IMG/VR virus record: IMGVR_UViG_3300044950_000794
Coordinates: 1-55,871 of that record
Origin: a virus
DNA length: 55,871 bases
Direction: 5' to 3' (one strand)
A model generated the notes under the pieces. That model worked only from the letters and a program-made list of their open reading frames with translations, did no database searches and was not told where the DNA came from. The translations under genes and the position numbers were made by a program. Positions 5,168-55,871 of the stretch are shown in pieces. The first letter of the stretch is position 1. Each line of letters opens with the position of its first letter.

Positions 5168-8100
5168 CTATGGTGATACTATGTCGCAGAAGAAGGTTGC
5201 GCGGCTGTTTATTTGGTCGATGCTCACACTGAGGTTCTTGTAACCCCCAGCCGAATACAGTGCGTTAAACGTCGCGTCGTCGTTAGGCGGGGCCGACGCG
5301 ACGACGGACACCCTACGCCATCGAAACCACGACGCGGGGGTGATCGTTGTGACCTCTGCCCCGTTCTTGAACAGTCGCGCGCTCAGTAGCGTGGTTTGCC
5401 CCATACCCACCTTAAACGAGGTACCATTGGAGGACTCTATACCAACGGTGAAGTTAAATCCAGTCTCGAAATAGATAGACCACGCCAAGGGGGTGCCCGT
5501 TAGGATATAGCTGTTTCCATCCGTAGTATTTCGGTAAACCGCGTTCTGTGCCCAAGCGGCCCCAAGCCCCCCCTGTGTCGGCGGCGTGGAGAACGCTCCA
5601 ACATAGTTAATTGACGGCACAAGACTGTTGGCGGCCACCTGTGATATAGCAATCTGTGAGCCATTCACCCATACGTAGGCCCCTGCCCCCACTTCACCGT
5701 TGGCCCCGAATACAAGGTCACCGGAGGCGTCCAACACGTTCAAGCCTCGTCCGTCCACGTCAGTGTTGACGACCGCGTGAGTCGTGGCCTGCCCGACGTA
5801 TACCAGTCCCGACCTAACCAATGGCGTGCCATGTGCCACCGTACGCGCCCAGAAATGCCGTGTCTCCCCGGTGCCAAGTCCTACCATAGTGAACCTCTCG
5901 GACGGAGTAGCACCGGCCAGAACCGCCGTCGCCTCCACACCGGTGGCACTTGAGTAAATCTCAACCTCCTTGAACGACGGTAGGTCCGAGGGGTTTACCC
6001 ACTTCACTTGGATTTGCCGTATACCCCCGACAACGACGGGGGATGACACGTTAGGCATGATATAGTCCGCAGGCCTTCCCGTGACGTCAAACACAAGGAG
6101 GCTTGTGTCATTTGATTTGCGACCAGTTCCATCGTATGCACGTAAGACTGCATGATATCTTGCCCCCGCTACTAGGTCTGGGAGCGTCACGGTGTTATTC
6201 ATCCGCAGATCAATGGTCCTCCACTCCTGCCCACGTATGCGGTAGGACAACTCATACCCGCGCACGCGCGGGTCAGTGTGGCGTGTGAATGCAAGCTGCA
6301 CACTCGGGCTGTCAGCCGCACCCGGTGCGGGCGCTACGAACTCAGCCACCCGGAAGTTCTGTGGGACGGGTAAGGCCCCGGTGGGCATAAGCGGCTCCGG
6401 GAAGGATGGTAACTCGTAGCCACCCTCAATGATGCCATACTTGGAAGGATCATGCTGTAGTGCTGTTATCTCATACTGGTCCTTGCCCACTTCTCGGTTT
6501 GCCAGCACACGCCATAGCGTGTCGGGGCCGCTGATCTTACGCAAGGCCCAGATAGTTTCCAAGGGATTGGCGGTGAGTTCGGGCAGTGCAACACTAACGT
6601 CTATCACTGCCGTGCTGCCGCTGGCAGACGTGACGGTCCTATAGTGCAGCGCGCGTTGCTTGTCGTGGATCACCAGTTCGTATGCTTGCCCCGGATCAAG
6701 GTAGACAGACCGGTCTAGTGTCACGGTGTTGGTGGTGTACCCCGACAAGCGCCCGCCCATGGAGACGCCCATGGTCGATGGGTCCATGACGCGCACTACA
6801 CTCCCCGGCCCTATGTCGAAGTGATCGGGACCGGCCACGTACGTGATAACCTCACTCTCCATCCTTTCGGTGTATAGAAGCCACCGCCCGGCCCGAACCG
6901 CTTGCGCCCGGCTGGTACACCCGAAAGCGATAATGTCGGTAGGCCGCAGCCCGTTTTTGAAGATGCCCTCACGGTCGTCAACCGTTACCACATCGCGTTT
7001 GTAGAAATTGGCAGGGTTGTTATAGGTCACGTTCACCCTGTTGTGCACGGTCAAAAGGCTTGCCCCTTTGTAGGAGAACTCACCGTCAACGGTGTTGGCG
7101 CGTGTCACGGTAACCTCCGGGTCGCGGGGCATGTCAGCCGTGAACATAACGCTGCCTAGGGCATAATAAATCATGCCCCTGAACACACTGGACATAGCGT
7201 TCAGCAGTTGGTAGGCCTCAAAGCGCGTGCTAATATAGGCGTTGAATGAGAAGCGCGGCTCAAGGCTTCCGTCCCCATTATCCACCAGAGGGGCGCAATA
7301 CTGGCTGATGGCATATAGCGTAGTGTCGTCAAGGTAGGTTTCCGGTATGTACCGGCCAAGGCCCCACCGCTCATTTCGCATCACCGCTCGCAAGCACCAC
7401 GCGGGGCAGTCAGTCCATTCCTCTTTGAACGCACCGTTCCATATGCCGGTGTACACCCGTGTAATAGGGTCAAAGTTGACAGGCACCGGGCAAATCAGAC
7501 CCTCGACTAGCACAGCGCGCGACGGGATATTGTTGCCGAACTGCTCCGCGCTAGCGGATATCGCAAGAAGGGCGGTGTGTGGGTACACGAACTTTTGGTC
7601 AATGATCTGGGTGTATGAGAAGAAGTGCACTTCATTGGCGAGTTCAGTGCTGTCAACGGCATCGTCAGTCTCGCGCACAACACGAACGTTCCATGGTCCA
7701 GCGCCCGTCAGGTTGAACCGGTGGGCTAGGAACGTGGGGCTGGTACACTTCTGGTTTGACAGGACGAAGGGGCTACCGGATATGTCGATCCAGCTTCCGC
7801 CAGATGGCTGGTACTGTACGCGGTAGCTTACGTCGGTGACCAGCATATCGCCTTTTTCTTTGTTCAGCTTCCATAGCTGGGGTATCTTTATCTGCACCCG
7901 CACTGCGTCGGTAAGCTGCTCATTGATAGTCCGAACCACGGGTGTGGCCTTGACAACGTGTGTGTCAACCACAATCTCTGCCTCCTGAGAGGAAAAGCCG
8001 GGGATGGCGCTTTGGTCTGGCAGGCCTAGACGTGTGTGGTAGGTCACGCCCTTGAAGTTAAGAGCGCCCCCTTCGTCATACAACGGTACTTCGTTCAGAT

Positions 8101-8284: not shown

Positions 8285-8286
8285 GA

Positions 8287-9420: not shown

Positions 9421-10239
9421 CTACCCCCGATATCGCATGACCTTGTGCAGGAACCTTCCCCATTGCACGAGGGGGTCCGTCTTGCTTATCTTGCCGTGCA
9501 TGTGGTGAAGGAACAAGCCCTCGCTTACGTATACTCCACAGTGTGTCACTACGTTATGCCTCAGCTTGAATAGTAACCCGTCACCATCCTGTATATCGGC
9601 CCGCTCAACCTCGTGGTAGCAGTCGTTAGTCATATGTGTGATTAGCGGGTTTTCGGCGGTACGGTCATCCCACCAGTCCTCGGCCCTAGGGTAGTCTGGG
9701 AGCACGTTTCCGAAAGCTGCCCAGTGATAGTGCCGAACCATCGCGAAGCAGTCTGTAACTCCCGACCGAAAGTCTCGGTGCTTCAGCGGGGGTACGGGTA
9801 GCTGGTCGCCCCACCCCCAGAAGTCCATGAAGGTGTTCTTGTGTGACAGGGTGCAGACGTAGTAAGGCACAGCCATGGTCAGTTGTGAGGATATGTCAGC
9901 CGGGCTTGGGGCTAACTCCCCATGGGGGTGTGAATGGAATACGCCTTGTAGCGTTCCGTCCAGCATGTGCTTGCGTGTATGCTCCCGACCTATAACGAAG
10001 TGGCCGCGCCGGTCCTCTGCCTCGTTATCGCAGGGTAGGTAGCGCACCCGGTGCGGCCCGTCCTCAACAAATAGCCCGCACGCCTCGTCAGGCCACTTAG
10101 CGTGAGCGTGGTGTATGGCGTCTTGCTTGGCGTCCTCGCCTATTGACGCAAGCGGCCTACCATGGGGAAGCCCCCGAATGGGGTTTCCTCGTCGCGTCCA
10201 TAGCGCGCCCGACAGCCGGTCTTCAGTTGGTGTGAACAT
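9421..10239 (-). CDS. K: tail tip assembly protein K: JAMM peptidase plus NlpC/P60 domain
   Basis: A protein of 272 residues with two domains. An N-terminal JAMM/MPN+ metalloprotease shows Glu52 (DEACGLF) and the HSHPHGELAPSPAD motif (His102, His104, Asp115). The C-terminal NlpC/P60-like cysteine peptidase has candidate Cys164 (TDCFAMV) and His233 (THCGVYVS). Homologues cleave peptidoglycan or process tail tip proteins during assembly. The only ATG lies 100 bp inside the end of the L-like gene, an unusually long overlap in another frame, and its ribosome site is weak. Translation may depend on the upstream gene. Confidence 0.88.
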   Translation of the reverse strand: MFTPTEDRLSGALWTRRGNPIRGLPHGRPLASIGEDAKQDAIHHAHAKWPDEACGLFVEDGPHRVRYLPCDNEAEDRRGHFVIGREHTRKHMLDGTLQGVFHSHPHGELAPSPADISSQLTMAVPYYVCTLSHKNTFMDFWGWGDQLPVPPLKHRDFRSGVTDCFAMVRHYHWAAFGNVLPDYPRAEDWWDDRTAENPLITHMTNDCYHEVERADIQDGDGLLFKLRHNVVTHCGVYVSEGLFLHHMHGKISKTDPLVQWGRFLHKVMRYRG

Positions 10240-11399
10240 ACGTCTAGTGCCCCGTTGATTACCGCGTTCCCGTCAGCGTCGAACATAGCCACCGCGTTGT
10301 ATGGGCATCCGTCCTCACCCGCGTAGTCGAACCCAGTACCATTCCAGACACGATAGGTAAAGGGGCACACGTCACGCAGTACCTGACGGCCCGGCAAGGA
10401 TACTCCCGGCTGATCAAGTACGCTGGCCAATTCAAATTCGATGACCTTGGCGTTCTGTAGCCCCTTCCGGTCGATCTTGAAGATATCGGGTGGGTACACG
10501 GCGGCTGGGTCAGGATCGGGGCCGTTATCAAGATTGTCCGCGAATAGCTGCCTGCGTGTGACGATTGCTCCCCGTAGATCGCCGTACTGCTGCGCGAGCG
10601 CGCTTCCCTCACTGAACAGATTGGACATACGCATCTTTGGCCGGGGGAACGGCCCCGACCCTGACTTCTCAAAGCCCGTGACCTCAATCGGGATAGGGGT
10701 GTAGGCGTTCCCGCCAAAGACCGGAACCCGTACCGCCTCAGCGGTGTTGGCTACCACTGCGCTAGTCGCGGTACCTAACCATCCGCCGACTATCTCGGGC
10801 AGGATGACTGGCATGGGGAACCCACCGGACACGTGCCTCACTTCAACACCGAACAGGTCAACTGACCCGGTTACGACATTGGAAGTTGTGGGGAATGACG
10901 CGGTTGCCCCCATGGACGGGGATAGGACAAGGAACAGGCTCGGTGGCAAGACGGTGTTCATGACAAACTTGATCGAAAAGTAAACCCACTCCCCGGCCAT
11001 GGCCAGCACGGTTGCGGCTGTTCCCGTGGAAAGTGCGGTTAGGCTCGAATAGGAACTCACAAGCGTGGCCAAGTTAAGGGATACGCTTGAAACAGGTGCA
11101 GCCCCGCTGATCGTGCCAGATAGGGATATACGCGGGTACGTGGTATCCCCACTCACCGGGCGCATGTAGCCGGAAATGACTACCTCGTCCCCGGCAATAG
11201 GCGTGATGGGCAACTGCACGTATTCGTAGTGCGCGATAGTCGTGGAGGTGTCGGACAGGCGCGTGCACTTGTCGGGTGTGACGTCTTCCCGCGCGGGGGT
11301 GAACCGTAGCATGCCCCCGCCAAGTGGCGTAAGGTCCACGTCGAACAGGCTGATCTTGACGCCCGGCGATAGGGATAGGGTACGGTCGCTGAGTGTCAT
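10140..11399 (-). CDS. L: minor tail protein L, Fe-S type, with large N-terminal insertion
   Basis: A protein of 419 residues. The C-terminal ~230 residues match the lambda gpL family (ITVTGFEKSG-like PIEVTGFEKS, RPKMRMSN, PPDIFKIDRKG). Four cysteines, C345, C365, C388 and C396 (VCPFTYR, GCPYNA, VCSHQLKTGC), correspond to those binding a 4Fe-4S cluster in lambda gpL. Relative to lambda (232 residues) there is an extra segment of roughly residues 40-200, beta-rich and resembling a carbohydrate-binding sandwich, placed after the first strands. Its ATG overlaps the stop of the M-like gene region (TAAATG). Confidence 0.87.
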   Translation of the reverse strand: MTLSDRTLSLSPGVKISLFDVDLTPLGGGMLRFTPAREDVTPDKCTRLSDTSTTIAHYEYVQLPITPIAGDEVVISGYMRPVSGDTTYPRISLSGTISGAAPVSSVSLNLATLVSSYSSLTALSTGTAATVLAMAGEWVYFSIKFVMNTVLPPSLFLVLSPSMGATASFPTTSNVVTGSVDLFGVEVRHVSGGFPMPVILPEIVGGWLGTATSAVVANTAEAVRVPVFGGNAYTPIPIEVTGFEKSGSGPFPRPKMRMSNLFSEGSALAQQYGDLRGAIVTRRQLFADNLDNGPDPDPAAVYPPDIFKIDRKGLQNAKVIEFELASVLDQPGVSLPGRQVLRDVCPFTYRVWNGTGFDYAGEDGCPYNAVAMFDADGNAVINGALDVCSHQLKTGCRARYGRDEETPFGGFPMVGRLRQ

Positions 11400-11750
11400 T
11401 TAAGCTGCCCCGTGAAACTGTATGAGTGTCGCCTGCGCACTATAGTGCCCGGCGCTTGTCTGGGTATACGACCATTGCGAGCACTTGAAAACCCTCTGAG
11501 TGCCGTTGGGTGGGGTATACCGGAAGGGCGTGGCCGGGGCGTGTGCCGTAAAGAACGCAATCAGTATGTCGAACTCAGTTTTGTTGATATCGGTCCAGTT
11601 CAGGACAACCTTGTCAGTACGCGCGTTGATGCCGTTTGGTGCGCTGAGTGCGTAGCCGTCTCCAAAGGTAACCTCGTTCATTTTGTATTCGGGGGTGACC
11701 GTGATGGGCAGGTCGGGCAACGGCAGGGCTGGGAAGGTGTTCATGGGCAT
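11400..11750 (-). CDS. M: minor tail protein M
   Basis: A protein of 116 residues with the lambda gpM family pattern: an N-terminal strand (TVTPEYKMNEVTFGDGY), the WTDINKTEFDILIAFF helix and the C-terminal FRYTPP / YSAQATLIQF strands. A strong ribosome site (AAGGAG) precedes the first ATG, preferred over the second Met two codons later. It forms part of the tail-tip cap between the tape measure and the L-like protein. Confidence 0.87.
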   Translation of the reverse strand: MPMNTFPALPLPDLPITVTPEYKMNEVTFGDGYALSAPNGINARTDKVVLNWTDINKTEFDILIAFFTAHAPATPFRYTPPNGTQRVFKCSQWSYTQTSAGHYSAQATLIQFHGAA

Positions 11751-11761
11751 GGGTGTACTCC

Positions 11762-14700
11762 TTAACCATACGGTCTGACAGCGGGGTTGAACATGCCGCC
11801 GTTACGCTGTTGCTCGGTGATGAACTCTGCGAAGGCTGCCCGCATGTGCGCGTCCAATGATTTCATGAGACCCTCGCTCTGGGTCTGATCATCTTTACCA
11901 TTACCCGCACCCGGTGCGCCGCCAGAGGTCTCAATGTGGTAACTTGGGGCGTAGGTTCCTATATGGATACCCCCGTCGCGCGCGCCAGAGCGGCGCTCAG
12001 CACCGTTGGCCTGTTCCAGAGTATCCACCCCCGCGCCGTAGCCGCTAGGCCCCTGAGAGGCCAGCGTTGCGCGCTGAAGCAGCCCAGCCACCTCCCGCAT
12101 GGCGGAAAGCACGTCAGACATATCGCCCCCTATGCTCCGTACCGCTAGAGTTCCGTCGCCGGTGCGCGTGAGGGGCATCAAGGCTTCGTCACCGGCCTCG
12201 CCCATCAGCGCCATGGGGATAGTCTGGCTCTGCTTGAAGACGTTACCTTTGGCACTGGCCACAGTCCGGGTACCGCCGCCGAATATGCCGCCGAATAGGC
12301 TGCCAAGGAAGCCAAAGAAGCCACCCCCACCACCACTACCTCCGCCAGACATTGCTGACTTTAGGCGCTCAAGGATGGGCTGAAGGATCATGGCTTGCAA
12401 TGCGAACTTGATCAACTCAGACCCCATCTGTTTGAACGCGGTCCCGAAGATATCAGCAAGCCCGCTCATGTCACTGAAGCCCTTCTCAAGGATATGGTCA
12501 ATGACGTTATCGAAGCTATCCGATAGCGTGCCCACCAACGAAGACGCCACGTCGGACGCGTCAGCAATGTTCCGTGATGCCTCGTCAAGGGCTTGATACA
12601 GTTGTGGCAGGAGGCGCTCATTCTCCTGTACGGCACGACGACGGTCCTCGACTAGGCGCTGTAATGCGTCGGCCTCAGCCGCCGTCATGGTTATACCCTT
12701 AGCCTGTAACTCCTGTTCCATGCGCATGTAGTCAGCGCGCATTGCACGGGTCTCCCCGTCAAGGAACATGGTATCAACCAGTTCTGAAGTCTCGCGGTGG
12801 TAGTCCGCTACGACCTCGGATAGACGCCCATAGGCCTCTATTTCCGCGTTGGCCTCCGCGACCTTGCCCGCACCGCCGCCGTTACCTCCACCAGAACCGC
12901 CCTTGCTCGCAAAGCGCTCTTCGATGGTCTTCATACGCAGGCCGTGCGCCTCCGCCGCCGTCTCAATGGCCGCATCGCGTTCGGCACCAACTGCGACGGT
13001 CTTGCTGATACTCTTGGTCAGTTCATCAAACTCGCGCCGCTCCTGCTCAATAGCCCGGTCACGCGCGGGTAGACTGCTCAGGTGGGCTTCATCGGCATAG
13101 TCCTTCAGGGCCTCAGCGGATGACCGGGCGGCCTTGGCCGTGCCGTCAAGTTCGGACACGACTGCGTTGTACTGCGTTGTCAAGCGGGCGCGTTCTTGGG
13201 CTGCCCGTTCAAAGGACATAGTCCCCGCGTCAACCTCGGTGGCTACGGCGGACACGCCTTCCTTGTACAGGTTGTTCGCCGCGCTAAGCTGCCCCTGCAT
13301 GGCCATAGCGGCTTGGAAGCCCGGCATCATGGCCATAAGCCCGGACATTGCCCCGGTCGCGTTCATAGCCGCACCGGCCAGATTGTTAGCCCCACCAGCC
13401 GCCGCGTTCAGCCCCCCGGCTGCCCCAGCCCCGGCCCCTTCAAGCGCGGCTAGGGCGGCCTCCATGGCCCTGACGTCCTCCTCAGTAGCCCCCAACTCTT
13501 GGGCTTTCCTGATCATGCCGACGATAGCCGTGACGGTATCAGCCCCGAGCCGTTTCGTCTCGTCTCCGGTAAGCTGCGCAGTGCTAGCCAAGTCCTGAAG
13601 GCGGGCGATCACACCGTCAATTCCTTCGGTCTCGTATAGCTGGTCAAAACGATTGGCCATGGCCACCTTACCAAAGGCACTGTTGAACCCTGTCTCAAGC
13701 GCGGATGCCTCAGCCTCTGCGTCAGCGAACACTTGGCGCAACTCTTGCCGCATTGCGTCCGCTTGGTCGGCAAATGCTCGCTGCGCTTGATCCACCTCCT
13801 CGCGCTTGATAATGGCAAGCTGCTCTTGCAGTTCCTTGTTCTTGTTTATGCGCTCGTCAATGGCCGCGATTGCGAGTGTGGCCGCGTTCTGCGCGGCTTG
13901 GCTTCCGGTAGCCTCAGCATCCTCAAGCGCCTTCTTCTGCGTGGTCAATTCAGCGTAGTCAGCCGATAGCTTCTCGCTCACACTGGAAAGCTGCGACGTC
14001 GTGACGGCTGCATCGGCCATGACTTGGTCAAGAGACCGGGCGCTTTCACGTGTGCTCAGGAAGTAAGCCCCAAGCCCGACACCCGCGCCGATCAGCAAGC
14101 CCATAGGGCCGCCCAAGAACCGCAAGGCTGTGCTCAGTGCCGTGACAGCCGCCGTAGCCACGCCAGACGCAAGCGCCAATGGGGATAGCGTACCGGTCAA
14201 CAACCCGGCTGCGATGATTGAGAAGCCTATGCTCGTGGTCATTCCGGTGATCGCCGTGACCAGCGCAGGGATTGCCGTGGCCGCAAGCCCGACCATGACA
14301 GCCACAATGATATCAAGGTTCTCCGCCACGAAGCTTACTGCCCCTGTGAAGGTCTCAAGCGCGGGCACAACTATAGACAGAGCGACCTGTCCGACAGCCA
14401 ATGACACATCTTTGAATAGGGCCATCTGCACGTTTAGGCGGTGGGACAGGCTATCTGCGACTTTGTTGAACGCCACGTCAGTGGCCCCGGCCCGGTCTCG
14501 CATCATATCCATAGTGCTGGCCAGTGCGTCACCGCCGCCGCCTGTGAATGACAGTACCGCGTTGAGGCCCTCAACGTCGGTGAACAGGCGCGACAGTGCC
14601 TCTGATGATCCGCCAGATTTGGCAATGACGTCCTCAAGGAACGCTTCAAGGCCCTTGCTGCGCAGCGCCGCCGTGCTGAACTCAAGCCCCATTTCCTTGG

Positions 14701-15499: not shown

Positions 15500-16302
15500 T
15501 TACCTCCTCTTAGTTCCCGCACCCGGTGCGCCTCTGTCCTTGCCCGTGGTGCGTATCTCGGCAAGTGCGCTGTCTATGATGCCCATGGCGTCAACGTAAG
15601 TGGCTGACTGGTCACCTAACCCACCCGCCTCGGGCAGTACGCCCTTGTCAGCGAAACGGTGTTGGCGCATGAGGACATTGAACATGTGACGCTGGTCTCT
15701 GATAAACCTTAGTGGGCAGTGCGGTATCTTGTCATTGCCCATTATCGTTATGTTCTTGCCGTCCTCCGTGCACCCCCAAGTAGTCTTCATGCTCGCCGTG
15801 CATTTGTTACAGTCGCGGTCAGGAAGCAGGGACCGCGCCTTGACTGCGAGCCTTAGAAGTTTCCCGCTGTTGCCGACACGCCCGACAAGTCGGCCACCTT
15901 CTTGGACAGCGCCTTGAGCACGTCGTCGGGAAGCGCTTGCACCACAGACGACGGGGCACCAACGAAGCGCTTCGATCCGAGGACGAAGCCTTCCCCGATG
16001 TATTCCACCGGCGTGCTATCGTGGTCAGTCAGGCCTTCCCACCCGACCACGCCAAGGCGCACGCGGTTCAAGCGCCGCTCGGACATAGAGAAGGCCATGC
16101 CCATGTCAACCCGCGCCGTGCCGTCAGGCGCTTGGGTGACTTTGCTCTGAGAGAAGTCCATCATGGTGTCTTCAAGTGCGCCGCGCTCAGACGCGGTCAA
16201 GCAACGAAGTTTCCACACCACCGCTCCGGGGAGGGGTGCGCCGTCAGGCCCGATCTGTGACGGCAATACGAAGTCGATTTGGGCTGCGAGATTAAGAAGC
16301 AT
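15500..16302 (-). CDS. tail assembly chaperone G-T fusion made by -1 frameshift
   Basis: Probable frameshift product of about 267 residues: 148 residues of the G-like frame, 23 residues of linking frame without stop codons, then the 96-residue downstream frame beginning MKTTWGCTEDG. The slip site GGGAAAC is in the correct zero-frame phase, one codon before the G stop. The linker and start of the T part contain closely spaced cysteines (DCNKC, then WGC and PHC), suggesting a metal-binding knuckle present only in the fusion. In lambda, G and GT coat the tape measure during tail assembly; position immediately upstream of the tape measure supports the same role. The T-frame ATG at 15790 has no clear ribosome site. 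Confidence 0.75.
15518..15530. repeat. dispersed palindrome, copy 3
   Basis: CGCACCCGGTGCG in the last codons of the T frame, encoding GAPGAGTKRR. Confidence 0.85.
15853..16302 (-). CDS. G: tail assembly chaperone G-like protein
   Basis: A 149-residue zero-frame product ending ...GVSATAGNF. Size, acidic/helical character and position between tail tube and tape measure fit the first tail chaperone of siphophages. Sequence similarity to named families is weak, so the call rests on synteny plus the slip site at its 3' end. It is expected to be much more abundant than the fusion form. Confidence 0.8.
   Translation of the reverse strand: MLLNLAAQIDFVLPSQIGPDGAPLPGAVVWKLRCLTASERGALEDTMMDFSQSKVTQAPDGTARVDMGMAFSMSERRLNRVRLGVVGWEGLTDHDSTPVEYIGEGFVLGSKRFVGAPSSVVQALPDDVLKALSKKVADLSGVSATAGNF
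15859..15865 (-). other. -1 ribosomal frameshift slippery heptamer GGGAAAC
   Basis: Zero-frame codons are xxG GGA AAC followed by TTC TAA, i.e. X XXY YYZ in correct phase. Lambda uses GGGAAAG at the same place in gene G. Slippage puts ribosomes in the frame that continues without a stop into the downstream T frame. Confidence 0.8.
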
Positions 16303-17760: not shown

Positions 17761-17773
17761 CGCACCGGGTGCG
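17761..17773. repeat. dispersed palindrome, copy 4
   Basis: CGCACCGGGTGCG in the short gap between the 57-residue gene and the tail tube gene. Confidence 0.85.
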
Positions 17774-19133: not shown

Positions 19134-19146
19134 CGCACCGGGTGCG
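19134..19146. repeat. dispersed palindrome, copy 5
   Basis: CGCACCGGGTGCG in the ~88-bp gap upstream of the gp10/Z-like gene, about 18 bp before its start. Confidence 0.85.
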
Positions 19147-23271: not shown

Positions 23272-23284
23272 CGCACCCGGTGCG
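23272..23284. repeat. dispersed palindrome, copy 6
   Basis: CGCACCCGGTGCG between P2 and its first gene, in the leader of that transcript. Confidence 0.85.
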
Positions 23285-26394: not shown

Positions 26395-26458
26395 CCTCTC
26401 GGGCTGTAGCATAAGACCTGCACCGGGTGCGGCTCACACGCCTAGCACGACGACCCAT
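26366..26458 (-). CDS. possible micro-ORF (30 residues, basic)
   Basis: Frame starting MGRRARRVSRTRCRSYATAR in the ~240-bp gap. Very basic, containing ten arginines. Its ribosome site is weak and it overlaps the candidate promoter and palindrome copy 8, so it may be chance. Confidence 0.2.
   Translation of the reverse strand: MGRRARRVSRTRCRSYATAREVDIYRRNAT
26420..26430. repeat. dispersed palindrome, copy 8 (11-bp core)
   Basis: GCACCGGGTGC with a mismatch at the left outer base (T instead of C). It is in the intergenic region upstream of the 98-residue gene. Confidence 0.8.
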
Positions 26459-39918: not shown

Positions 39919-41237
39919 GCTGCACCGCCTTTCATGATTATGTGCTCTGCTTGTGCTGGGGTGGGGATGGCAGTGTCCTTAAACAGTTGTGGGTGCTTGA
40001 GTGATCGCAACCCAAGCATTTTTAGTTCTGAATACAGACGCATCCACTCGTCGCCACATGCTGCGGACCGGAGACCCGCTCTTGTAGCGTGGTAAAGAGC
40101 CTCGCCGGGGTTAACAGAGTGGGGCGGTGCGTATACCGGGCATCCACGGGCTTTGTCATAAGCCGCGTCATGGGCTGCAATCAGCGAGGCAGCGTCCATC
40201 ACACGCAGTTCTGGCGGGATATCAGACCGGCTCACACCTATGTGCGGCGTGCCGTGGTGCTCGCATCCCTCGTCTTCACATAGCCCCCCGTGGGCCTTGC
40301 CAGATGCAGGGAGCGTGTCTCCATAGAAGGGTGCCCAGCCTACTACCTCCCCTTCGCCTTGCGTGAAGCAGTCCTGTTCCCAGTTCCATCCCGCGAAGTC
40401 CCACCGGTCTTCATCCGTGTCCTGTAGGTTGTTGAAGCCTATCGTCCACGCAAGCCCGGCGTCCTCAATCGCGTTTGCTCCGTCCTCCCGGTAGTCAACG
40501 AGCAATCTCAGCAGGGTTCCGTCCTTTGGCGCGGTGCCCATAGCGTTGACCTTAGGCCACCACGCGGGTGTTGGGTCACCTTCTGGCGCACCGGGTGCGG
40601 CTTGTTGGGGCGGGTCCATGGGAACCAGCCCGTTACCGTAGGCCGCGTTGATGGCGTCCTCAAGCTGAGGGTACAGGCCAAGCCGCACCATCATGCCCCG
40701 CACCGTTGAGTGTCGGCCCACACGGGTATCGTCAGTCTCTATGACGTGGTTTAGGATATACTCCTGCCCGGCTGCCTTCAGGACGTCCTCAACCGATAGC
40801 ATGTCCACGACCTCCTTACTGCCTTCCTTAACCGCCATGATCACCGTGGCATACTCGTCAAGTGCCATGCTGTCATTAGGGTGGGTCAGGTGCCGTTGCA
40901 GTATGGGCAAGGCCCACTCGGCTTGTACGAGTAAATCGTCGCGGTGCGTACGCAGGTTGCGCACTATCATGTGATGCTCGTTGCGCGCCCGACGATCTGT
41001 CTCGGCGTTGATGCGATTACCGTCCAGTAGCGCCTTCTCACGCAACTCTGCGGCCACAAGACGCTTGCGCAACTCGACCACCTCTAGCCGCAGAGCATCC
41101 CGCTCAATGACGACCGCGTGCGTCTCCTTCCACGGTACCCACGCCCCGTCGGCCCGGCGCAACATGAGTGCGGCGTAACCATCTGTGCCACGTTCCAGCT
41201 TGAAGCGGGGCAGTGTCGTTGCGGTATTCTCGGTCAT
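39915..41237 (-). CDS. large multi-part hypothetical protein
   Basis: A protein of 440 residues. Order: a short start domain, a Glu/Arg-rich coiled coil (about 40-100), a helical middle, a linker containing AAPGAPEGDP (palindrome copy 14), then a WP-rich segment (PAWWPKVNAMGTAPKDGTLL, DRWDFAGWNW, VVGWAPFYGDTLP) typical of a small DUF551-like domain. A Cys/His part CEDEGCEHHGTPH and a C-terminal helical part follow. It looks like a composite of several small phage domains. Function unknown. Confidence 0.75.
   Translation of the reverse strand: MTENTATTLPRFKLERGTDGYAALMLRRADGAWVPWKETHAVVIERDALRLEVVELRKRLVAAELREKALLDGNRINAETDRRARNEHHMIVRNLRTHRDDLLVQAEWALPILQRHLTHPNDSMALDEYATVIMAVKEGSKEVVDMLSVEDVLKAAGQEYILNHVIETDDTRVGRHSTVRGMMVRLGLYPQLEDAINAAYGNGLVPMDPPQQAAPGAPEGDPTPAWWPKVNAMGTAPKDGTLLRLLVDYREDGANAIEDAGLAWTIGFNNLQDTDEDRWDFAGWNWEQDCFTQGEGEVVGWAPFYGDTLPASGKAHGGLCEDEGCEHHGTPHIGVSRSDIPPELRVMDAASLIAAHDAAYDKARGCPVYAPPHSVNPGEALYHATRAGLRSAACGDEWMRLYSELKMLGLRSLKHPQLFKDTAIPTPAQAEHIIMKGGAA
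40587..40599. repeat. dispersed palindrome, copy 14
   Basis: CGCACCGGGTGCG in a domain linker of the 440-residue protein gene. Confidence 0.87.
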
Positions 41238-41241: not shown

Positions 41242-41574
41242 TTACTCCCCTATGCTTGTGCATGACATGCGGGGCGGGTAGGCCGGGGTGGACTTGTCCT
41301 CTGCCCCCGCGTCCGATGCGAAGAACGCACTGATGCGGTCCTCAACGGCGCTCAGGTCCATGGCGTAGAGGTATGGGTGCTTGGCCATGCGCTCTTGCAG
41401 TTCCGCCCGCATACGTGCGCCCTCGCCCGTGCCCTTGGGTACGTCGTGGAATGGTGCGCAGCCAATGTTCAAGCCGATGCGGGTAATGCGTCCGGTGACA
41501 GTGCTTGGGTACTGCATGTGCTGCCCGCCCGGCGCACCCGGTGCGGTTTTGCCTTTGATGGTCTTGGTGGTCAT
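41242..41574 (-). CDS. hypothetical protein
   Basis: A protein of 110 residues (MTTKTIKGKTAPGAPGGQHM). AAAGGA upstream. After the palindrome-encoded TAPGAPGG come a YPSTVTGRITRIGLNIGC strand region and a helix ARMRAELQERMAKHPYLY. Unrecognised. Confidence 0.75.
   Translation of the reverse strand: MTTKTIKGKTAPGAPGGQHMQYPSTVTGRITRIGLNIGCAPFHDVPKGTGEGARMRAELQERMAKHPYLYAMDLSAVEDRISAFFASDAGAEDKSTPAYPPRMSCTSIGE
41533..41545. repeat. dispersed palindrome, copy 15
   Basis: CGCACCCGGTGCG near the 5' end of the 110-residue gene. Confidence 0.87.
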
Positions 41575-43988: not shown

Positions 43989-45116
43989 CTATATCAGGGT
44001 CACGCCCCCTCCCGTCCGCATGTGGCTGCGCAACAGTTGCTTGACCTCGGGGGGGATCACCGACGAGGAGGAATAGCTTCTGCCCGTGCGGTCACTGTCC
44101 TTTCCGATACCGTCCAGATCGCCACGCTTGTACAGATGATATGCCAGCATGGCGCACGCCTCTGATACCTCAGGGGCCACGTACCCTTCGGCGTGCTTCC
44201 ACTCCGTGTGTGACAACTCCAAGTCAATGAATGACACGCGGGCTACGTCCGTGGCTGCCCCCTCGATGGTGAGACGGTAGGTTGGGTAGGCCGTAGCCGG
44301 ATCGCCGGGCAGTTGATACGTCGTCAGCGGCAACGGGTTCGGTGAGTTCACCTGCTTCATGGTCACAGGGCTTCCAATCAACGGCACGCCTTCCAGCTTG
44401 ACCGTGGTTGCCTGCCCGCTGGCCAGAATAGTTCCATCCCGTGGGCCATGCACAGTCATCTTGTGCAGGGCTGTCAGGGCCTCTGGCGTGAAATCAATGG
44501 TGGCCGCACCCGGTGCGGTGAAGGCGCATGAGGCGCACGCCCCCGCCCCTTTGATCTGCACACCGGTGAACAGCAATCCAGCGGGTGCAAAGGTCGTTGA
44601 TAGGCCCATGGAGGCCATGGCCGATTTGCGGTCCTCGCCAACCATCACGTCATAGGCGCTGCCCGTGGTGGTGGTGTAGGAAACCCTTAGCCCGTGTACC
44701 ATGGTCTGCGGGTTGAAGCGCAGTCGGATGCGGCCAAGCCCCGGTTCGTAGATATAGTCAGTTGGCTGCACGAGCAAGGGGGCGTCTTCCCAGTCAAACT
44801 CGTCATCATAGGGTGCCCCCGCGCGGTAACGTACCGTCAAGCCCGTGAGCGCCCCCCTGACGGGCAGGTCAAATACCGCAGGTGTGCCCATACCGTTGGA
44901 TGCGGCCATGCTGGCCAGCGGCCCGCTCACGCTTGCTCCCACGGTGTCTAGCAAGAACACCTGCTCTGTCTCGGCAAGAACCATGCCGGTGAAGTCAAGG
45001 ATCAGTGCGGTAGCTGTCAGAAGATGCTTACGCAGTTCAGGCCCGGCAGACAAGGCACTGTCCCGACTGGGCATGAAGCCCACCAGACGCTGGATTGAGG
45101 ATAACGTGGTAGTCAT
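43989..45116 (-). CDS. head-tail connector / adaptor protein
   Basis: A protein of 375 residues. The C-terminal ~60 residues (EACAMLAYHLYKRGDLDGIG, RTGRSYSSSSVIPPEVKQLL) fit gp6-like head-tail connectors, where an SYSSS-like stretch precedes the last helix. The large N-terminal part is beta-rich and not recognised, so the protein is bigger than most connectors (~100-150). AGGAGG lies upstream. Last gene of the head module. Copy 16 of the palindrome encodes TAPGAAT. Confidence 0.72.
   Translation of the reverse strand: MTTTLSSIQRLVGFMPSRDSALSAGPELRKHLLTATALILDFTGMVLAETEQVFLLDTVGASVSGPLASMAASNGMGTPAVFDLPVRGALTGLTVRYRAGAPYDDEFDWEDAPLLVQPTDYIYEPGLGRIRLRFNPQTMVHGLRVSYTTTTGSAYDVMVGEDRKSAMASMGLSTTFAPAGLLFTGVQIKGAGACASCAFTAPGAATIDFTPEALTALHKMTVHGPRDGTILASGQATTVKLEGVPLIGSPVTMKQVNSPNPLPLTTYQLPGDPATAYPTYRLTIEGAATDVARVSFIDLELSHTEWKHAEGYVAPEVSEACAMLAYHLYKRGDLDGIGKDSDRTGRSYSSSSVIPPEVKQLLRSHMRTGGGVTLI
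44505..44517. repeat. dispersed palindrome, copy 16
   Basis: CGCACCCGGTGCG in the connector gene. Confidence 0.87.
44924..44935 (-). repeat. 12-bp repeat CAAGCGTGAGCG, copy d
   Basis: In the connector gene in a different frame (ASVSG), showing that the repeat is not only a KRER peptide effect. Confidence 0.5.
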
Positions 45117-47416: not shown

Positions 47417-48700
47417 TTACGCGGCGAAGCCCAGCCGTTTCAATGCGCGGCGCTCGCTCTCGCGTTTAGCCGCAACGTCTTCGGCGGTTTCGCCGTTGTC
47501 TTCGCCGGTGCCTTCTGAAGCATCCGCCGATTTACGCTCTGGCACAATGCGCGCCGTGGTGGTGTCGGTGTCATCCGACTTCGTGCTGGCCTCCATGGCG
47601 ACTACCGCCATGGTGTCCAGTGTCTTCTGCATGGCCGCGAGTTGGCCCATCATGGCCTTCATCGCGGGGTCTTCGGACAACGGCGCAACCGGTGCAGCGC
47701 TGATTTGCTCTGCGCTCTTCGCGGTTCCCTCGGGCTGTGCTGCCTCGGGCATGGCGAACAGCAACTCAAGCAGCGCGTCAATAGCTGCCTCGTCCTCCAC
47801 GCTCTTGGTGGTAGTGCCATCGCCGGTAGCGTCAATGATGGTAGCATAGGCCGCGTTCAGGGCCATGATACCCCGCACAAAGTCCCCGGTCAGGGCGTTC
47901 AAGCGCGTCTCGTCTGCCCGCCCGGCCTTCATCAGCTTGCGTAGTTCGGTCATCATGGCGTCAGTCAGCGACCACATACCGGGTGGCACGCCGCCCGTGT
48001 ACTCAGCCACGGTGTCGGCGAACGACTTGGCGGTGATGCCCCGGTCAGCCGCAAACGCTTCAAAGTTTCCACACGCGTCAACCACTGCGTTGATGGACTG
48101 CCCGCCCACGCTCAGGATGGTAGCGCCCTTGCGCTCACGCTTGCGGATGGGCTGGTCAATGGGTGCGTCAGCGCCCTTGGCTGCATCCTCAGTCGCACCG
48201 GGTGCGGGTGTGTCGTCAGCAGCGGCATCGCCATCGGCAAGGGTGTCCGCGCCATCCGCGCCCGCATTGTCCGAACCTTCCTCGGTCTTCGCCACGGCGG
48301 CCACGGGGTTGCCCACCACGTAGGTGACGCCCTTGTGGGTGGGGCTTTCGACCGAGCGCAGCGCGCCGTCAATCTCGGCCTCAGGTGCGTCCTCGACATA
48401 GAACGAGCCGTCATCCTGCTTCACGACTGCGAAGTCGGTGTAGCCCTTTCCGGTCATGAACTTGGTCACGGAAGCCTCGTCTACGAAGCCATCGCCTGCG
48501 AACACGATACGGTGCAGCTTCACGGCGGAGGCCTGCTTCGGGGTTTGGTCAGTGTTGGGCATAGGTGCCTCCATGGTGTGGGTTTTCACCGCGTGAAACG
48601 GTCGTTGGTTTGCCCCGTGCTTGACAAGCGAGACAAAGAGCGGGTCGGGGTCGTACATGACGCCAACGATAGTCTTGGCACGGACTGAGGTTCTCTTCAT
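47417..48700 (-). CDS. scaffold-like protein
   Basis: A protein of 427 residues, acidic and Ala-rich, with a C-terminal helical region and Met-rich coiled coil (AMKAMMGQLAAMQKTLDTMA). Lies between the protease and capsid genes, the usual place for a scaffold. The N-terminal ~110 residues (SLVKHGANQRPFHAVKT, LHRIVFAGDGFVDEASV) resemble the domain that often accompanies XkdF-type proteases. Contains QPIRKRERKG and palindrome copy 17 (PAPGATED). ATGA-coupled to the protease. Confidence 0.78.
   Translation of the reverse strand: MKRTSVRAKTIVGVMYDPDPLFVSLVKHGANQRPFHAVKTHTMEAPMPNTDQTPKQASAVKLHRIVFAGDGFVDEASVTKFMTGKGYTDFAVVKQDDGSFYVEDAPEAEIDGALRSVESPTHKGVTYVVGNPVAAVAKTEEGSDNAGADGADTLADGDAAADDTPAPGATEDAAKGADAPIDQPIRKRERKGATILSVGGQSINAVVDACGNFEAFAADRGITAKSFADTVAEYTGGVPPGMWSLTDAMMTELRKLMKAGRADETRLNALTGDFVRGIMALNAAYATIIDATGDGTTTKSVEDEAAIDALLELLFAMPEAAQPEGTAKSAEQISAAPVAPLSEDPAMKAMMGQLAAMQKTLDTMAVVAMEASTKSDDTDTTTARIVPERKSADASEGTGEDNGETAEDVAAKRESERRALKRLGFAA
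48132..48143 (-). repeat. 12-bp repeat CAAGCGTGAGCG, copy e
   Basis: In frame as RKRER in the scaffold-like gene. Confidence 0.55.
48194..48206. repeat. dispersed palindrome, copy 17
   Basis: CGCACCGGGTGCG in the scaffold-like gene. Confidence 0.87.
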
Positions 48701-49433: not shown

Positions 49434-49446
49434 CGCACCCGGTGCG
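49434..49446. repeat. dispersed palindrome, copy 18
   Basis: CGCACCCGGTGCG in the ~105-bp gap between the head morphogenesis and protease genes. Confidence 0.85.
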
Positions 49447-52668: not shown

Positions 52669-53249
52669 AGCATAAGCCCCGCACGTGTTGCCCGCTCCAT
52701 GAGGTCTTGGGGTACGTTGCGTCTGACGAAGTTCCGCACCCGGTGCGGCGTAAGCACGTAACCGTCAAGGTGCATGATCCCTGACAACGCCTTTGCCACT
52801 ATGCGATGGTTGCCGTCTATCACGTGCGCCTGCGTGCCGTCTTCGGACAGTACGACCATCACTGGTTCGTCATAAGTGCCCTTGGCCTTGCGTATCGCGG
52901 CCACGTCCGCTGCGTCCTCAGCCTTCAGGTCGTTGCGCTGCATCATGCCCAGAACCTCGAGCAGTTCTAGTTCAATGCACACGGTGTCATCATTCCTCAG
53001 GTCTTCTCGTAGTGCCTTGACGTTGTACAGGTCTAGGATGCCGTCATGGTCATGCAGATACACCTCCGTAAGCGCCTTCTGGTCCGGGTTGGCCAGATAG
53101 TGAACTGCGGTCCCCGTGTAGTTTTGTCGGCAGTACCCGTGCTCATACCCAGAGAAATGCTCGTTGTACACCCCAGCCAACGGCCTCAGGTTCATGCCGC
53201 ACCGCACGCAAACGGTCGGGAACTTGTTCGGTAACTTCGTGTCAAGCAC
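52662..53249 (-). CDS. ParB-fold protein with N-terminal zinc ribbon
   Basis: A protein of 195 residues from GTG overlapping the methylase-like gene end. N-terminal C14/C17 (VCVRCG) with HGYC at 37-40 make a probable zinc site. The later part (EPVMVVLSEDGTQAHVIDGN, then HRIVAKAL) has the ParB/Srx strand-turn with DGNHR, the nucleotide-contacting motif of this superfamily. Such proteins may be nucleases, NTPases or DNA-modification partners. Palindrome copy 19 falls in its 3' part. Confidence 0.8.
   Translation of the reverse strand: MLDTKLPNKFPTVCVRCGMNLRPLAGVYNEHFSGYEHGYCRQNYTGTAVHYLANPDQKALTEVYLHDHDGILDLYNVKALREDLRNDDTVCIELELLEVLGMMQRNDLKAEDAADVAAIRKAKGTYDEPVMVVLSEDGTQAHVIDGNHRIVAKALSGIMHLDGYVLTPHRVRNFVRRNVPQDLMERATRAGLMLW
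52735..52747. repeat. dispersed palindrome, copy 19
   Basis: CGCACCCGGTGCG in the ParB-fold gene, read as TPHRVRN, a third reading frame. Confidence 0.87.
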
Positions 53250-54006
53250 GTGGGCGCTCCCTCTTCCTGATTGTGATCACGGGCTTGGTTGGCCGCGTGC
53301 GCTTGCGTATGGTTACCTCTGCGGCTTTACGCTTGCGGTCGCAGGCATTGGCATGAGGTACGAACTGCCGGTACCCCATGGTATAAGACACGTCTATCTT
53401 CGACCCGCTCAGGCTGTCGCCGTGCGTGACCCTGCCCGCTATGCCGCTCACGGATAGCTGCACATAGGCCATTCTGTACGCGCGCTCGGATAAGTCCGTC
53501 GCATCAACGAACATCACGGTGGATGGGTCGTAACCGGATTCACGCAGGTTTGACGCCAATGCGAGTACCATGGCCCCGGCCCCGACGGCTGGTTCGGCCA
53601 TGGTGAAGTAACCGTTGCTTTTAATGAGGGTGGGCACGTCGGTGCACTGCATAGCGGCCATCAGCTTACATACCTCAAAGGGCGTGAAGAACTGCCCTTG
53701 CTCGGCACGCAGCACACCTAGTTCACCCGCGAGCATCCCTAGATAATCCATGTTCGGGGAGTTCTCGAAGCACTCGGCTAGCAGGGCCGGGAACACTTTG
53801 CGAATGTCGTCTGCGGGCCACCGACTAACCTCCCGCATGTACCGCCCCTCTAGGGCATTGCGTCGGGCTTCGTCTGCTTTCGGGTCCAACTTGGCCAGTG
53901 CGCAGAAGGACAGTTCCAGAAAAGCATCAAACGCCTCAACTTGGTTGAAGCGTCTGGGCAACTGTCCATATAGTTTCAAGGCTTTGGCTAGGGCCGGGTG
54001 GGCCAT
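53242..54006 (-). CDS. N6-adenine methylase-like protein, catalytic motif not seen
   Basis: A protein of 254 residues. It has the HsdM-like motif X GQFFTP (104-109) and motif I AEPAVGAGAMVLALA (137-151) for S-adenosylmethionine, followed by a motif II/III-like VDATDLSERAYRMAYVQLSV and GDSL (196-199). The expected (D/N)PP(Y/F) motif IV is absent; the chain passes into KIDVSYTMGYRQFVPHANAC and a basic tail with two copies of IRKRxRP. So it may bind the cofactor or DNA without methylating. First gene after P12. Confidence 0.8.
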   Translation of the reverse strand: MAHPALAKALKLYGQLPRRFNQVEAFDAFLELSFCALAKLDPKADEARRNALEGRYMREVSRWPADDIRKVFPALLAECFENSPNMDYLGMLAGELGVLRAEQGQFFTPFEVCKLMAAMQCTDVPTLIKSNGYFTMAEPAVGAGAMVLALASNLRESGYDPSTVMFVDATDLSERAYRMAYVQLSVSGIAGRVTHGDSLSGSKIDVSYTMGYRQFVPHANACDRKRKAAEVTIRKRTRPTKPVITIRKRERPRA

Positions 54007-54031: not shown

Positions 54032-54060
54032 TTTGTAGCCCTATAGGGTTACCGTGTCAA
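54032..54060 (-). promoter_or_regulatory. operator-promoter P12
   Basis: -35 TTGACA, 17-bp spacer, -10 TACAAA; operator GTAACCCTATAGGGCTAC at 54035-54052. The stop of the IbrB-like gene lies within the -35. It drives the methylase-like/ParB genes and possibly the head operon. Confidence 0.83.
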
Positions 54061-54824
54061 GCGATTGGCCTTGTGCGCTTACGCGGTGCAGGCGGCTCAG
54101 TCGGTCTGACGGCGGCCTCGGCACTGTTAGGCCGCACCGGGTGCGCTACTTTGTCATGCTCAATCCTCACGCGTATCTGACGGCGCGTCTCCCATGCCGC
54201 CGTGTACTGTGCGTCTTGGAACAGCTTGGAAAATCCGGTCACGTGCTTCAGACGTGCCAACTCTTCAGGGATCATCCCGAGTTCGTTGCATATCTCCTTG
54301 TCGTCCCAGCCCTCCTCAAGCATGGCGAACACCATGCTGGCCATGCCGTCAATGGAGTGCTTACCCCGCGCCCGATTATGGCGCACCGTTGACGCCATGC
54401 GGTCGTTGATGGGCTTGTCAATCACAACGATGGGCAAGAGGCCACAGTTACGCTCGTGGATATCCGGGTTGTTCTTGCAGGTGAAGTACCGGTGGAAGCC
54501 GTCAACGATCACATACTTCCCTATGGTCTCGTCCCAGATGGTGACGACGGGCTGCGTGTATCCGTCATTCAGGATTGACAGATACAGAAGGCGCATTTCC
54601 TTCTCGGCCACTGAGTTGGGGTTGTAGTCGTTTGGCTGCACCATGTCCACGGGAACCCAGAGGATATTGTCAACCGGCTGCGCTGCCACCGGGGACAGTT
54701 CTTTGCTGAGGAACGTGCGGACCTCGCCTAGCCACCGCATAAGGGCTTGCGGGTCGTCTGTCCCGTGAGCCTCGTCAATCAGGGCCTTGGCCAGTGTGTC
54801 TGACATTGCGTGCATGGTGGTCAT
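54057..54824 (-). CDS. ParB-fold protein, IbrB-like
   Basis: A protein of 255 residues. The ParB N-terminal-type domain is at about 50-160: VPVDMVQPNDYNPNSVAEKE, ILNDGYTQPVVTIWDE and VIVDGFHRYFTC (motif DGFHR), followed by a helical DNA-binding-like part (DDKEICNELGMIPEELARLK). It partners the PP-loop gene immediately upstream by an ATGA overlap, the standard IbrA-IbrB arrangement. IbrB proteins are described as transcription co-factors in E. coli; in phages the role is not established. The end carries APRKRTRPIA and the palindrome copy 20. Confidence 0.84.
   Translation of the reverse strand: MTTMHAMSDTLAKALIDEAHGTDDPQALMRWLGEVRTFLSKELSPVAAQPVDNILWVPVDMVQPNDYNPNSVAEKEMRLLYLSILNDGYTQPVVTIWDETIGKYVIVDGFHRYFTCKNNPDIHERNCGLLPIVVIDKPINDRMASTVRHNRARGKHSIDGMASMVFAMLEEGWDDKEICNELGMIPEELARLKHVTGFSKLFQDAQYTAAWETRRQIRVRIEHDKVAHPVRPNSAEAAVRPTEPPAPRKRTRPIA
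54133..54145. repeat. dispersed palindrome, copy 20
   Basis: CGCACCGGGTGCG in the IbrB-like gene, read as AHPVR. Confidence 0.87.
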
Positions 54825-55871
54825 CCGTGTCTCCGTTCTGTTATGTCGCCACCTTTTCGCCCACGGTTCTTAGCGAACCGGCCATGGCTAGCGGCAAACG
54901 TGGTCAATTTCACCCCGTGGTAGTCATCGGTCAAGACCGCTTTGATCTGTGCTCTCACGAGGTCATGATGGGCTTCGATATCATAGTTGTCGCACCACCG
55001 CCTGAAGGTGGTGTGGAACAGGGTGCGTTTATCCGGGTCAGTGATCAAGTTGTCCACGAGGTGGTCACGGTACTCGTACCACGTGGCAAACATGGGCGGC
55101 AACGCCTTGGGGGCCATGAATTCCTTTTTGAGTTGCCCGACTGCGTGCACCCCGTGCACCCGGTGCACTAGGGCCTCGTAGGTCTGAGGCTCAATCTCTT
55201 GCAGGTAGTACAGGCTGGTCAGCGCAGTGTCGTGATGCAGGCTTGATACACGCATGTTTTGGACTGGAACACCATACCGGTACATATAATCGTAGATGCG
55301 GCAATAGGGCCATTCGTTGTCGTGGATGGCCTTCCAGATATCAGTGTATGACCAGTCGTAAAGCGGGTAGAAGGTGTAGTGGTCAATGGCTTTGTTTTCG
55401 ACCTTGCCCCACGTGCGGCCCTTGTAGGTGGCATAGGACGTCAGACCCTTCATGCGCGCCGGGCTTTCCTCGCACCGCACCCCGGCCAGCTTGCAGATAC
55501 GGCCATTCGGAAAGATGCTCTCGGCTACCTTTCCGAACAACTCGCCAAAGGTCAAGGTGCCAAACGTGTTCTCGTGGATGCTGTTAGGCTCCTTCTCACG
55601 CATCCACTTGTCGCCCTCGTTCCAGCAGTACAGCCACTCCACCTCGGTAGACGATCCGTTGGAAATGCGCAGCGGGCACTGAAGCCAGACGGGGATCACC
55701 CGTGGGTCGTTCATCACGTCTCTCACGTAGTCGATGGTGGCCGCATATTCAGCCTCTTGGTCAATGAACAGCACGTGCAGGGGCAGTCGCCCAAGTTCCC
55801 CGGCCACTTTGAGGGCCATGTTCAAGACCACCGTGCTATCCTTGCCGCCGCTGAAGTTCACGATGACGTTG
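54821..55871 (-). CDS. PAPS-reductase-like PP-loop protein, IbrA-like (5' end cut)
   Basis: At least 350 residues; the frame continues past the window edge (codons reading NVIVNFSGGKDST), so the true start lies outside. PP-loop motif SGGKDS, then FIDQEAEYAATIDYV, cysteines in QCPLRIS and RICKLAGVRCEESPARM, and YPLYDWSYTDIWKAI, all typical of the PAPS-reductase-like IbrA group, which activates substrates by adenylation. The RxxExxxR-like pocket CEESPAR is intact. Forms a pair with the IbrB-like gene. Palindrome copy 21 encodes VHRVHGVH. Confidence 0.86.
   Translation of the reverse strand, partial: NVIVNFSGGKDSTVVLNMALKVAGELGRLPLHVLFIDQEAEYAATIDYVRDVMNDPRVIPVWLQCPLRISNGSSTEVEWLYCWNEGDKWMREKEPNSIHENTFGTLTFGELFGKVAESIFPNGRICKLAGVRCEESPARMKGLTSYATYKGRTWGKVENKAIDHYTFYPLYDWSYTDIWKAIHDNEWPYCRIYDYMYRYGVPVQNMRVSSLHHDTALTSLYYLQEIEPQTYEALVHRVHGVHAVGQLKKEFMAPKALPPMFATWYEYRDHLVDNLITDPDKRTLFHTTFRRWCDNYDIEAHHDLVRAQIKAVLTDDYHGVKLTTFAASHGRFAKNRGRKGGDITERRHG
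55156..55166. repeat. dispersed palindrome, copy 21 (variant flanks)
   Basis: GCACCCGGTGC core flanked by T and A, giving 15-bp symmetry GTGCACCCGGTGCAC. It has a neighbouring half-site GTGCACC, so it may partly reflect local repeats. Confidence 0.7.

Follow-up and report, generated by a model that had tools for sequence, protein, structure and literature searches.

Why should a virus carry one 13-base palindrome again and again along its DNA, inside genes as well as between them, and what reads it? The question is raised by the IMG/VR virus contig IMGVR_UViG_3300044950_000794, whose whole length of 55,871 bases is referred to here as the window. Every convincing gene on it lies on the minus strand, and it has a lambda-like tail module. 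The palindrome, CGCACC-S-GGTGCG with C or G at the centre (CGCACCSGGTGCG), occurs in 20 exact copies, against an expectation of 0.00 (none in 100 dinucleotide shuffles). Two more copies have changed outer bases (TGCACCGGGTGCG and TGCACCCGGTGCA), for a total of 22. These evenly spread palindromes look like an undescribed genome-wide DNA-binding system. The explanation favoured here, with a probability of about 0.6, is that a phage protein of PHROG family 17202, called c12 below, binds the whole array.

Number, placement and spacing of the sites

A preliminary description of this DNA had reported about 21 dispersed copies, two of them with altered outer bases. The dispersal and both altered copies stand; exact copies number 20 rather than 19. 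The array had been placed at 6317–55166 with C and G about equally frequent at the centre (11 and 10). Its start is correct and its last site ends at 55167; the near-equality holds, with 12 C and 10 G on the plus strand. The expectation of well under one chance copy agrees with the dinucleotide shuffles. Shuffling synonymous codons in every called gene gave 0.9 coding copies on average, not about 20, the figure that had been set for a codon-usage explanation.

Genes hold 12–13 of the sites and the DNA between them 9–10. The earlier estimate of about 13 genic copies was sound; that of 8 between genes was low, and the enrichment in intergenic DNA (p = 2.9e-6), which makes up only 6–9% of the window, is stronger than had been implied. 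The genic copies fall in differing reading frames, as had been noticed, and outside the 13 bp nothing is strongly conserved. A transposon or longer repeat as the source of the palindromes was rejected on account of these unconserved flanks.

The regularity of the spacing had not been remarked. The distances between sites in the window have a coefficient of variation (CV) of 0.49, compared to 0.94 under uniform placement (p = 2e-4) and 0.97 in a null model that keeps the genic and intergenic proportions (p = 1.5e-4). The density is about one site per 2.5 kb. Such even spacing argues for a dependence on distance along the DNA. There are no sites left of 6.3 kb, as first described, but that stretch alone is not significant (p ~0.07).

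When IMG/VR was searched for the motif in a 15-base form, one contig of 34,111 bases stood out (IMGVR_UViG_3300044950_000563, loci L433 and L434; G046 below). It carries 11 exact palindromes, or 14 counting outer-base variants, and has no protein in common with the window. Its tetranucleotide usage is the closest to that of the window among the genomes compared (0.83; the next is 0.59), and it contains a copy, 97% identical across 32 bases, of a promoter-like repeat seen in the window. When the two are laid end to end, open reading frames run without a gap across both junctions; at one of these the truncated IbrA of the window gains its missing N-terminus from G046 (..RWLFSEFP/NVIVNFSGGKDST..). 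The ends share no overlapping sequence, and the join rests on reading-frame continuity and composition. On this evidence the window and G046 are most likely one phage of ~90 kb. The joined genome has 36 sites with a spacing CV of 0.57, compared to 0.96 expected (p = 5e-5), and its largest gap, 6.8 kb, is the one at the site-free left end of the window.

The palindrome across a phage lineage

The major capsid protein of the window is ~42% identical to those of HJ05 (Aeromonas), DLP3 and DLP5 (Stenotrophomonas), JP1 (Agrobacterium), and I4 and L338C (Rhizobium), phages with genomes of 79–110 kb. The window belongs to this lineage of 80–110 kb siphophages, which includes Delepquintavirus, Rhizobium L338C, Agrobacterium JP1 and others. 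One member, DLP5, is a temperate phage that was obtained in phagemid form (PMC5834331). Further relatives were sought in IMG/VR with the capsid protein; a single-sequence query gave no matches and an alignment query succeeded.

The relatives were scanned for over-represented palindromes without the motif being supplied. HJ05, DLP5 and JP1 each have a dispersed palindrome of their own, as do many capsid-related IMG/VR fragments and the majority of the 28 complete or nearly complete records scanned. The commonest form, TGCAAYnnRTTGCA, reaches 47 copies in L338C. JP1 has 33 palindromes of the TTGCAAA type and DLP5 has 31 of TGCAAn4TTGCA (TGCAATCAATTGCA, the counterpart of CGCACCSGGTGCG in G046). 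Other variants are TGAAAYnnRTTTCA, GCACTTAAGTGC, TGCACACGTGTGCA and odd-spaced forms in the loci L287 and L311. The CGCACC-S-GGTGCG of the window is one further version of this lineage palindrome. In VHS1, PJ32, G010 and G009, TGCAAYnnRTTGCA is far above its shuffled expectation once one mismatch is allowed; exact matching had missed the motif in the first three, whose copies carry one mismatch. Jay2Jay and Sham, distant relatives that infect Streptomyces, lack the motif class, and so do unrelated IbrB-bearing phages such as Hendrix, Nebkiss and phiFN37. Even spacing (p < 0.01) appears independently in about a dozen distant relatives, with CVs of 0.48 in DLP5, 0.60 in L338C, 0.43 in G013, 0.36 in G011 and 0.48 in G017, and the palindromes are enriched in intergenic DNA in all 20 lineage genomes tested. 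Literature searches, limited to open-licence papers, returned no report of such arrays, and the DLP3 and RcZahn papers do not mention the palindromes.

Two of the phages outside the motif class have repeats of another kind. Jay2Jay (KM652554) carries 19 copies of GTCCGnnnCGGAC, which are clustered (CV 3.4), unlike the lineage arrays. The Microbacterium phage Hendrix (MH183162) has 39 copies of CCTCGAGG where 7.5 are expected, and three ParB-like genes and a helix-turn-helix (HTH) gene ahead of its terminase.

Comparison of close relatives points to selection on the sites themselves. DLP5 and DLP3 are ~83% identical; 30 of the 31 DLP5 sites can be aligned, and all 30 keep every fixed base, whereas the identity of the flanks predicts ~6 intact sites. 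In I4 and L338C (~80% identical) 39 of 40 sites are intact, compared to ~5 expected. Conservation at this level shows that each palindrome is individually maintained by purifying selection, in genes and between them. Selection, the unconserved flanks and the recurrence of the array in the lineage with new sequence strongly support the original suggestion of a site for a phage DNA-binding protein, and it is close to certain that the palindromes are a protein-binding array under selection.

These observations bear on two other readings of the sites. The first is that they are modification or restriction-avoidance sites for a phage or host methyltransferase, and the window does encode a short N6_Mtase-like protein, gene 81, a fold fragment that may miss part of the usual domain. 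However, the sites are positively maintained and evenly spaced, where avoidance would deplete them, and a methyltransferase target would have no need of 14 specific bases whose identity shifts from relative to relative while the gene family that remains linked is another one. Among the shared families listed, gene 81 was not found to co-occur with the motif, and this reading is scarcely credible. The second is that a host-encoded DNA-binding protein uses the sites, since the motif differs between phages of different hosts. Yet the TGCAA half-site is common to phages of five host genera (Stenotrophomonas, Rhizobium, Agrobacterium, Aeromonas and Rhodobacter), the motif follows phage descent, and one phage gene, that of c12, described below, has its promoter marked by the sites. 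A host protein is very improbable.

Candidate readers of the sites

The c12 protein is DLP05_067 in DLP5 and has no function assigned in PHROG. In the phage of the window its gene lies outside the window, on G046 (match to phrog_17202, 6.9e-30; Table 1). It closes a block shared by the lineage: DnaB-primase-SSB?-SF2 helicase-(MerR)-c11-RecA-Holliday resolvase-Cas4-RuvC-c12. All 24 near-complete motif-bearing genomes of the lineage have c12, and it was not found in the motif-free Jay2Jay and Sham. Among contigs of at least 9 kb retrieved through c12 alone, 33 of 54 carry a dispersed palindrome; the figure is 20 of 59 for contigs fetched through the capsid protein. In the comparison sets it is 2 of 39 for contigs that a DNA pattern had retrieved (the locus of G046 is one of the two) and none of 7 for IbrB contigs.

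A cognate palindrome stands at the 5′ end of c12 in 28 of 50 genomes, compared to 4.9 expected, and does so in TGCAA, TGAAA, GCACT and CGCACC versions. The corresponding counts for RecA (5/46), RuvC (1/47) and MerR (0/37), and those for Cas4 and the ParB-like genes, lie close to or under the number expected. In several genomes the palindrome ends ~6–10 bases before a TTGACA-like −35 element of c12; in the phage of the window it lies 71 bp upstream of the ATG. In G012 (L135) the c12 promoter region has two tandem palindromes or half-sites of the AAGTGC type. AlphaFold2 predicts for DLP5 c12 a confident all-helical core (residues 52–170, mean pLDDT 90.5), and the region around a conserved RKAxYL motif reads, by eye, like a helix-turn-helix. 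Distance between these putative HTH segments tracks distance between motifs after RecA divergence is removed (Mantel test, partial r 0.30, p 0.0045), a modest correlation but the highest of the block protein families tried.

Several results weigh against the binding of an evenly spaced array by c12. Sites at the 5′ end are also enriched for the AAA ATPase (9/21, 1.8 expected) and the SF2 helicase (11/44, 4.1 expected), and in 22 of the 50 genomes no exact site stands before c12 at its 5′ end. The genomes are kin, so that 28 of 50 does not amount to 28 independent events. The c12 segment used in the Mantel test was picked by eye, after looking, and residue covariation tied to the motif's C/A switch failed to set c12 apart from the other block proteins. 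Pfam yields no match for c12, and PDB searches, both by sequence and by fold, gave nothing significant. Its only hint of a DNA-binding fold is a weak likeness (E ~0.02), among viral models other than its own kin, to DUF3102 and ParB-like proteins. In HJ05, RcZahn, G008, G014, G006 and G009 the spacing is not significantly even. When these points are set beside the co-occurrence and the 5′-end sites, c12 is still probably the binder.

The MerR-like HTH protein of the block, c19, was rejected as a partner, as it has no site at its 5′ end in any of the genomes counted. A homologue was not detected in RcMenchie, RcZahn, G004, L273, L275, L280, L281 or L302, nor in the block of the window's own phage.

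The preliminary description had named the ParB-fold proteins encoded in the window as possible partners. Gene 82 has a ParB_N-like domain and is an IbrB-type protein adjoining IbrA (gene 83). In addition, G046 carries two ParB_N proteins, ParB-like genes occur near TerL in about three-quarters of the motif-bearing genomes examined, and KorB, the ParB-family CTPase clamp of plasmid RK2, uses dispersed palindromic operators (PMC11790492). However, no ParB_N protein was found in six genomes that have the motif (G006, G009, G010, ValSw41, VHS1 and PJ32), and homologues of gene 82, 57–69% identical, lie on contigs without any dispersed palindrome. For these two reasons ParB proteins are not the common reader of the sites, and a required partnership was rejected. 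With 5′-end sites at ParB-like genes only at about expectation, binding of the palindromes by ParB- or IbrB-type proteins is improbable. They could cooperate with the common reader, by analogy with KorA and KorB.

The IbrB/IbrA pair (ParB-like and PAPS-reductase-like) is a module found in many unrelated phages; in the window the contig end interrupts its IbrA, whose reading frame runs on into G046. Paired adjacent ParB-like genes (~220–310 and 510–570 aa) are found near TerL in HJ05 (Aeromonas), UF_RH6, G008, G014 and others.

Table 1. Palindromic sites of the window and selected genes; positions are those of the window unless G046 is given.
Feature	Position	Strand	Context
Palindrome CGCACCCGGTGCG	6317–6329		in gpJ-like gene 4
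Palindrome CGCACCCGGTGCG	10043–10055		start of gene 6
Palindrome CGCACCCGGTGCG	11906–11918		in tape-measure-like gene 9
Palindrome CGCACCCGGTGCG	15518–15530		in gene 10
Palindrome CGCACCGGGTGCG	17761–17773		intergenic, 22 bp upstream of gene 13
Palindrome CGCACCGGGTGCG	19134–19146		intergenic, 18 bp upstream of gene 16
Palindrome CGCACCCGGTGCG	23272–23284		intergenic, 20 bp upstream of gene 23
Palindrome CGCACCCGGTGCG	25043–25055		in gene 26
Variant TGCACCGGGTGCG	26419–26431		intergenic
Palindrome CGCACCGGGTGCG	27625–27637		intergenic, upstream of HTH gene 32
Palindrome CGCACCGGGTGCG	30928–30940		intergenic, adjoins TTGACA promoter-like repeat upstream of gene 37
Palindrome CGCACCCGGTGCG	33271–33283		intergenic, 22 bp upstream of gene 43
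Palindrome CGCACCGGGTGCG	37792–37804		in gene 56
Palindrome CGCACCGGGTGCG	38782–38794		intergenic per gene call used
Palindrome CGCACCGGGTGCG	40587–40599		in gene 63
Palindrome CGCACCCGGTGCG	41533–41545		in gene 64
Palindrome CGCACCCGGTGCG	44505–44517		in gene 72
Palindrome CGCACCGGGTGCG	48194–48206		in gene 76
Palindrome CGCACCCGGTGCG	49434–49446		intergenic, 83 bp upstream of gene 77
Palindrome CGCACCCGGTGCG	52735–52747		in gene 80
Palindrome CGCACCGGGTGCG	54133–54145		in IbrB-like gene 82
Variant TGCACCCGGTGCA	55155–55167		in IbrA-like gene 83
c12 gene	G046, 11349–12527	-	end of replication/recombination block
DUF7178 protein	29445–30170	-	PF23802, 2.4e-18
GmrSD-type protein	32739–33248	-	short; only the N-terminal domain of these restriction enzymes
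Gene 81	53242–54006	-	N6-methylase-like
IbrB/IbrA pair	54057–55871	-	genes 82 and 83

What binding of the array may do

In the mechanism proposed, one sequence-specific, probably dimeric phage protein, most likely the c12 encoded on the adjoining contig G046, would bind the palindromes as a genome-wide array in which distance along the DNA matters. It would probably control its own gene through the palindrome upstream of its start codon. It would also bind the other ~35 sites, genic and intergenic, and so act along the entire phage DNA. The most likely mode would be like that of KorB, ParB and Noc, with many loading or nucleation points from which the genome is covered or organised, and the few promoters that adjoin a site would be repressed locally. 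A condensation- or partition-like role, as first suggested, is possible.

Like the sites of these three proteins, those of the lineage are palindromic, dispersed and ~13–16 bp long. The core operator of KorB, TTTAGCSGCTAAA, is a 13-bp palindrome with an S centre, like CGCACCSGGTGCG. KorB also offers a parallel in placement: its OB operators are dispersed over an extrachromosomal element and lie 4–10 bp or far upstream of promoters (PMC11790492), and the lineage sites at c12 promoters end ~6–10 bp before the −35 element. The differences are that c12, with no Pfam match, lacks the ParB_N/CTPase domain of KorB, ParB and Noc, and that the phage sites recur at even intervals through a genome of ~90 kb, with over half of those in the window inside genes.

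In bacterial chromosomes, 13–14 bp palindromes are repeated over the molecule and bound by an organiser protein in the Noc/NBS, MatP/matS and SlmA/SBS systems; these sites either keep to particular domains of the chromosome or are excluded from them. The window resembles these in having a 13-bp palindrome repeated over the molecule. Unlike matS, the phage sites are not confined to one domain, being spread evenly over the joined genome, and unlike Noc, no member of the ParB family is required in the lineage. Homology of c12 to MatP or SlmA did not emerge, though no search aimed at MatP was made. Phage-plasmids of the N15 type have parS/ParB, with palindromic partition sites dispersed over the genome. 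The reported phage-plasmid lifestyle of DLP5 (PMC5834331) and the dispersed palindromes are points of likeness to them; the lineage differs in having many more sites and no requirement for ParB_N.

Overall, 67 of 428 sites lie near promoters, compared to ~43 at control offsets. The association is weak, and a promoter function for the sites in general was rejected on that ground. Promoter-adjacent sites are found in L338C (19/46), at c12 promoters and at window position 30928. Promoter-proximal sites and intergenic enrichment together argue for a transcriptional component. As in KorB (PMC11790492), organisation and transcriptional roles may both be true.

A second dispersed repeat of ~30 bases (GTAAACCnnnnGGGTTACAnnGTCAAG) occurs at window positions 19509, 23301, 24808, 25943, 28490, 30891, 33299, 35591, 36656, 39314, ~43948 and 54035, and also in G046. 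On the coding strand it has TTGACA, 17 bases and a TACATA-like element, with an inverted repeat in the spacer. These repeats are probably early promoters with their own operator.

The main rival to organisation by c12 is that the palindromes are transcription roadblocks or operators through which a lysogeny repressor silences the entire prophage, like the stoperators of Cluster A mycobacteriophages (L5, Bxb1 and relatives), where the immunity repressor binds and blocks elongation. Stoperators are short dispersed sites, ~30 in number and 13 bp long, whose sequence differs between subclusters and for which a single phage protein is the presumed reader (PMC6550527); 20–30 such sites are typical, and there are 22 in the window and 36 in the joined ~90 kb genome. 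The lineage sites are likewise dispersed, 13–14 bp long, ~20–50 to a genome, enriched between genes and specific to groups. Some stand beside promoters, as described above, and DLP5 is a temperate phage kept as a phagemid (PMC5834331). However, stoperators are asymmetric and oriented with transcription, whereas the lineage sites are palindromic, evenly spaced and often genic, and most are without promoter association. Gene-by-gene silencing leaves the even spacing unexplained, and the candidate partner here is of a different, unnamed family within a replication/recombination block. Silencing of the stoperator type is possible but doubtful.

The position of c12 beside a helicase and recombination genes suggests another reading, in which the sites mark the DNA for replication, recombination or packaging, as a two-way Chi-like signal or a roadblock for the helicase-nuclease/RecA machinery. 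A DNA-scanning machine would be well served by regular spacing, c12 closes the conserved run of SF2 helicase, RecA, Holliday resolvase, Cas4 and RuvC, and the SF2 genes show mild enrichment of 5′ sites. Known Chi sites, in contrast, are asymmetric, no structural or sequence link was found between c12 and a nuclease, and a regulator fits the intergenic enrichment and the c12-promoter sites better. Marking of this kind is unlikely. As to the purpose that binding serves, organisation or coverage of the genome leads at a little under even odds. Transcription silencing is a lesser but real prospect, marking for replication, recombination or packaging has a small share, and any other purpose a very slight one.

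If c12 is the reader, the 80–110 kb phage lineage would possess an organising or silencing system unrelated to ParB, in which phrog_17202 proteins load every ~2–5 kb and control their own gene. Recognition would have shifted repeatedly, with the array rebuilt each time, to give each group a private code. This wider picture is put forward tentatively, as somewhat less than an even chance. Dozens of identical, even and strongly conserved sites point to a process that acts on the whole phage DNA rather than on single genes. Bacterial chromosomes and some plasmids have known systems of this whole-molecule sort, but few descriptions exist from phages. With its many site versions and its single candidate protein, the lineage forms a natural series for the joint change of specificity in a protein and its targets. 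A function that can be tested is thereby offered for a large, unnamed family of proteins and for phages already under study, DLP5, DLP3 and RcZahn.

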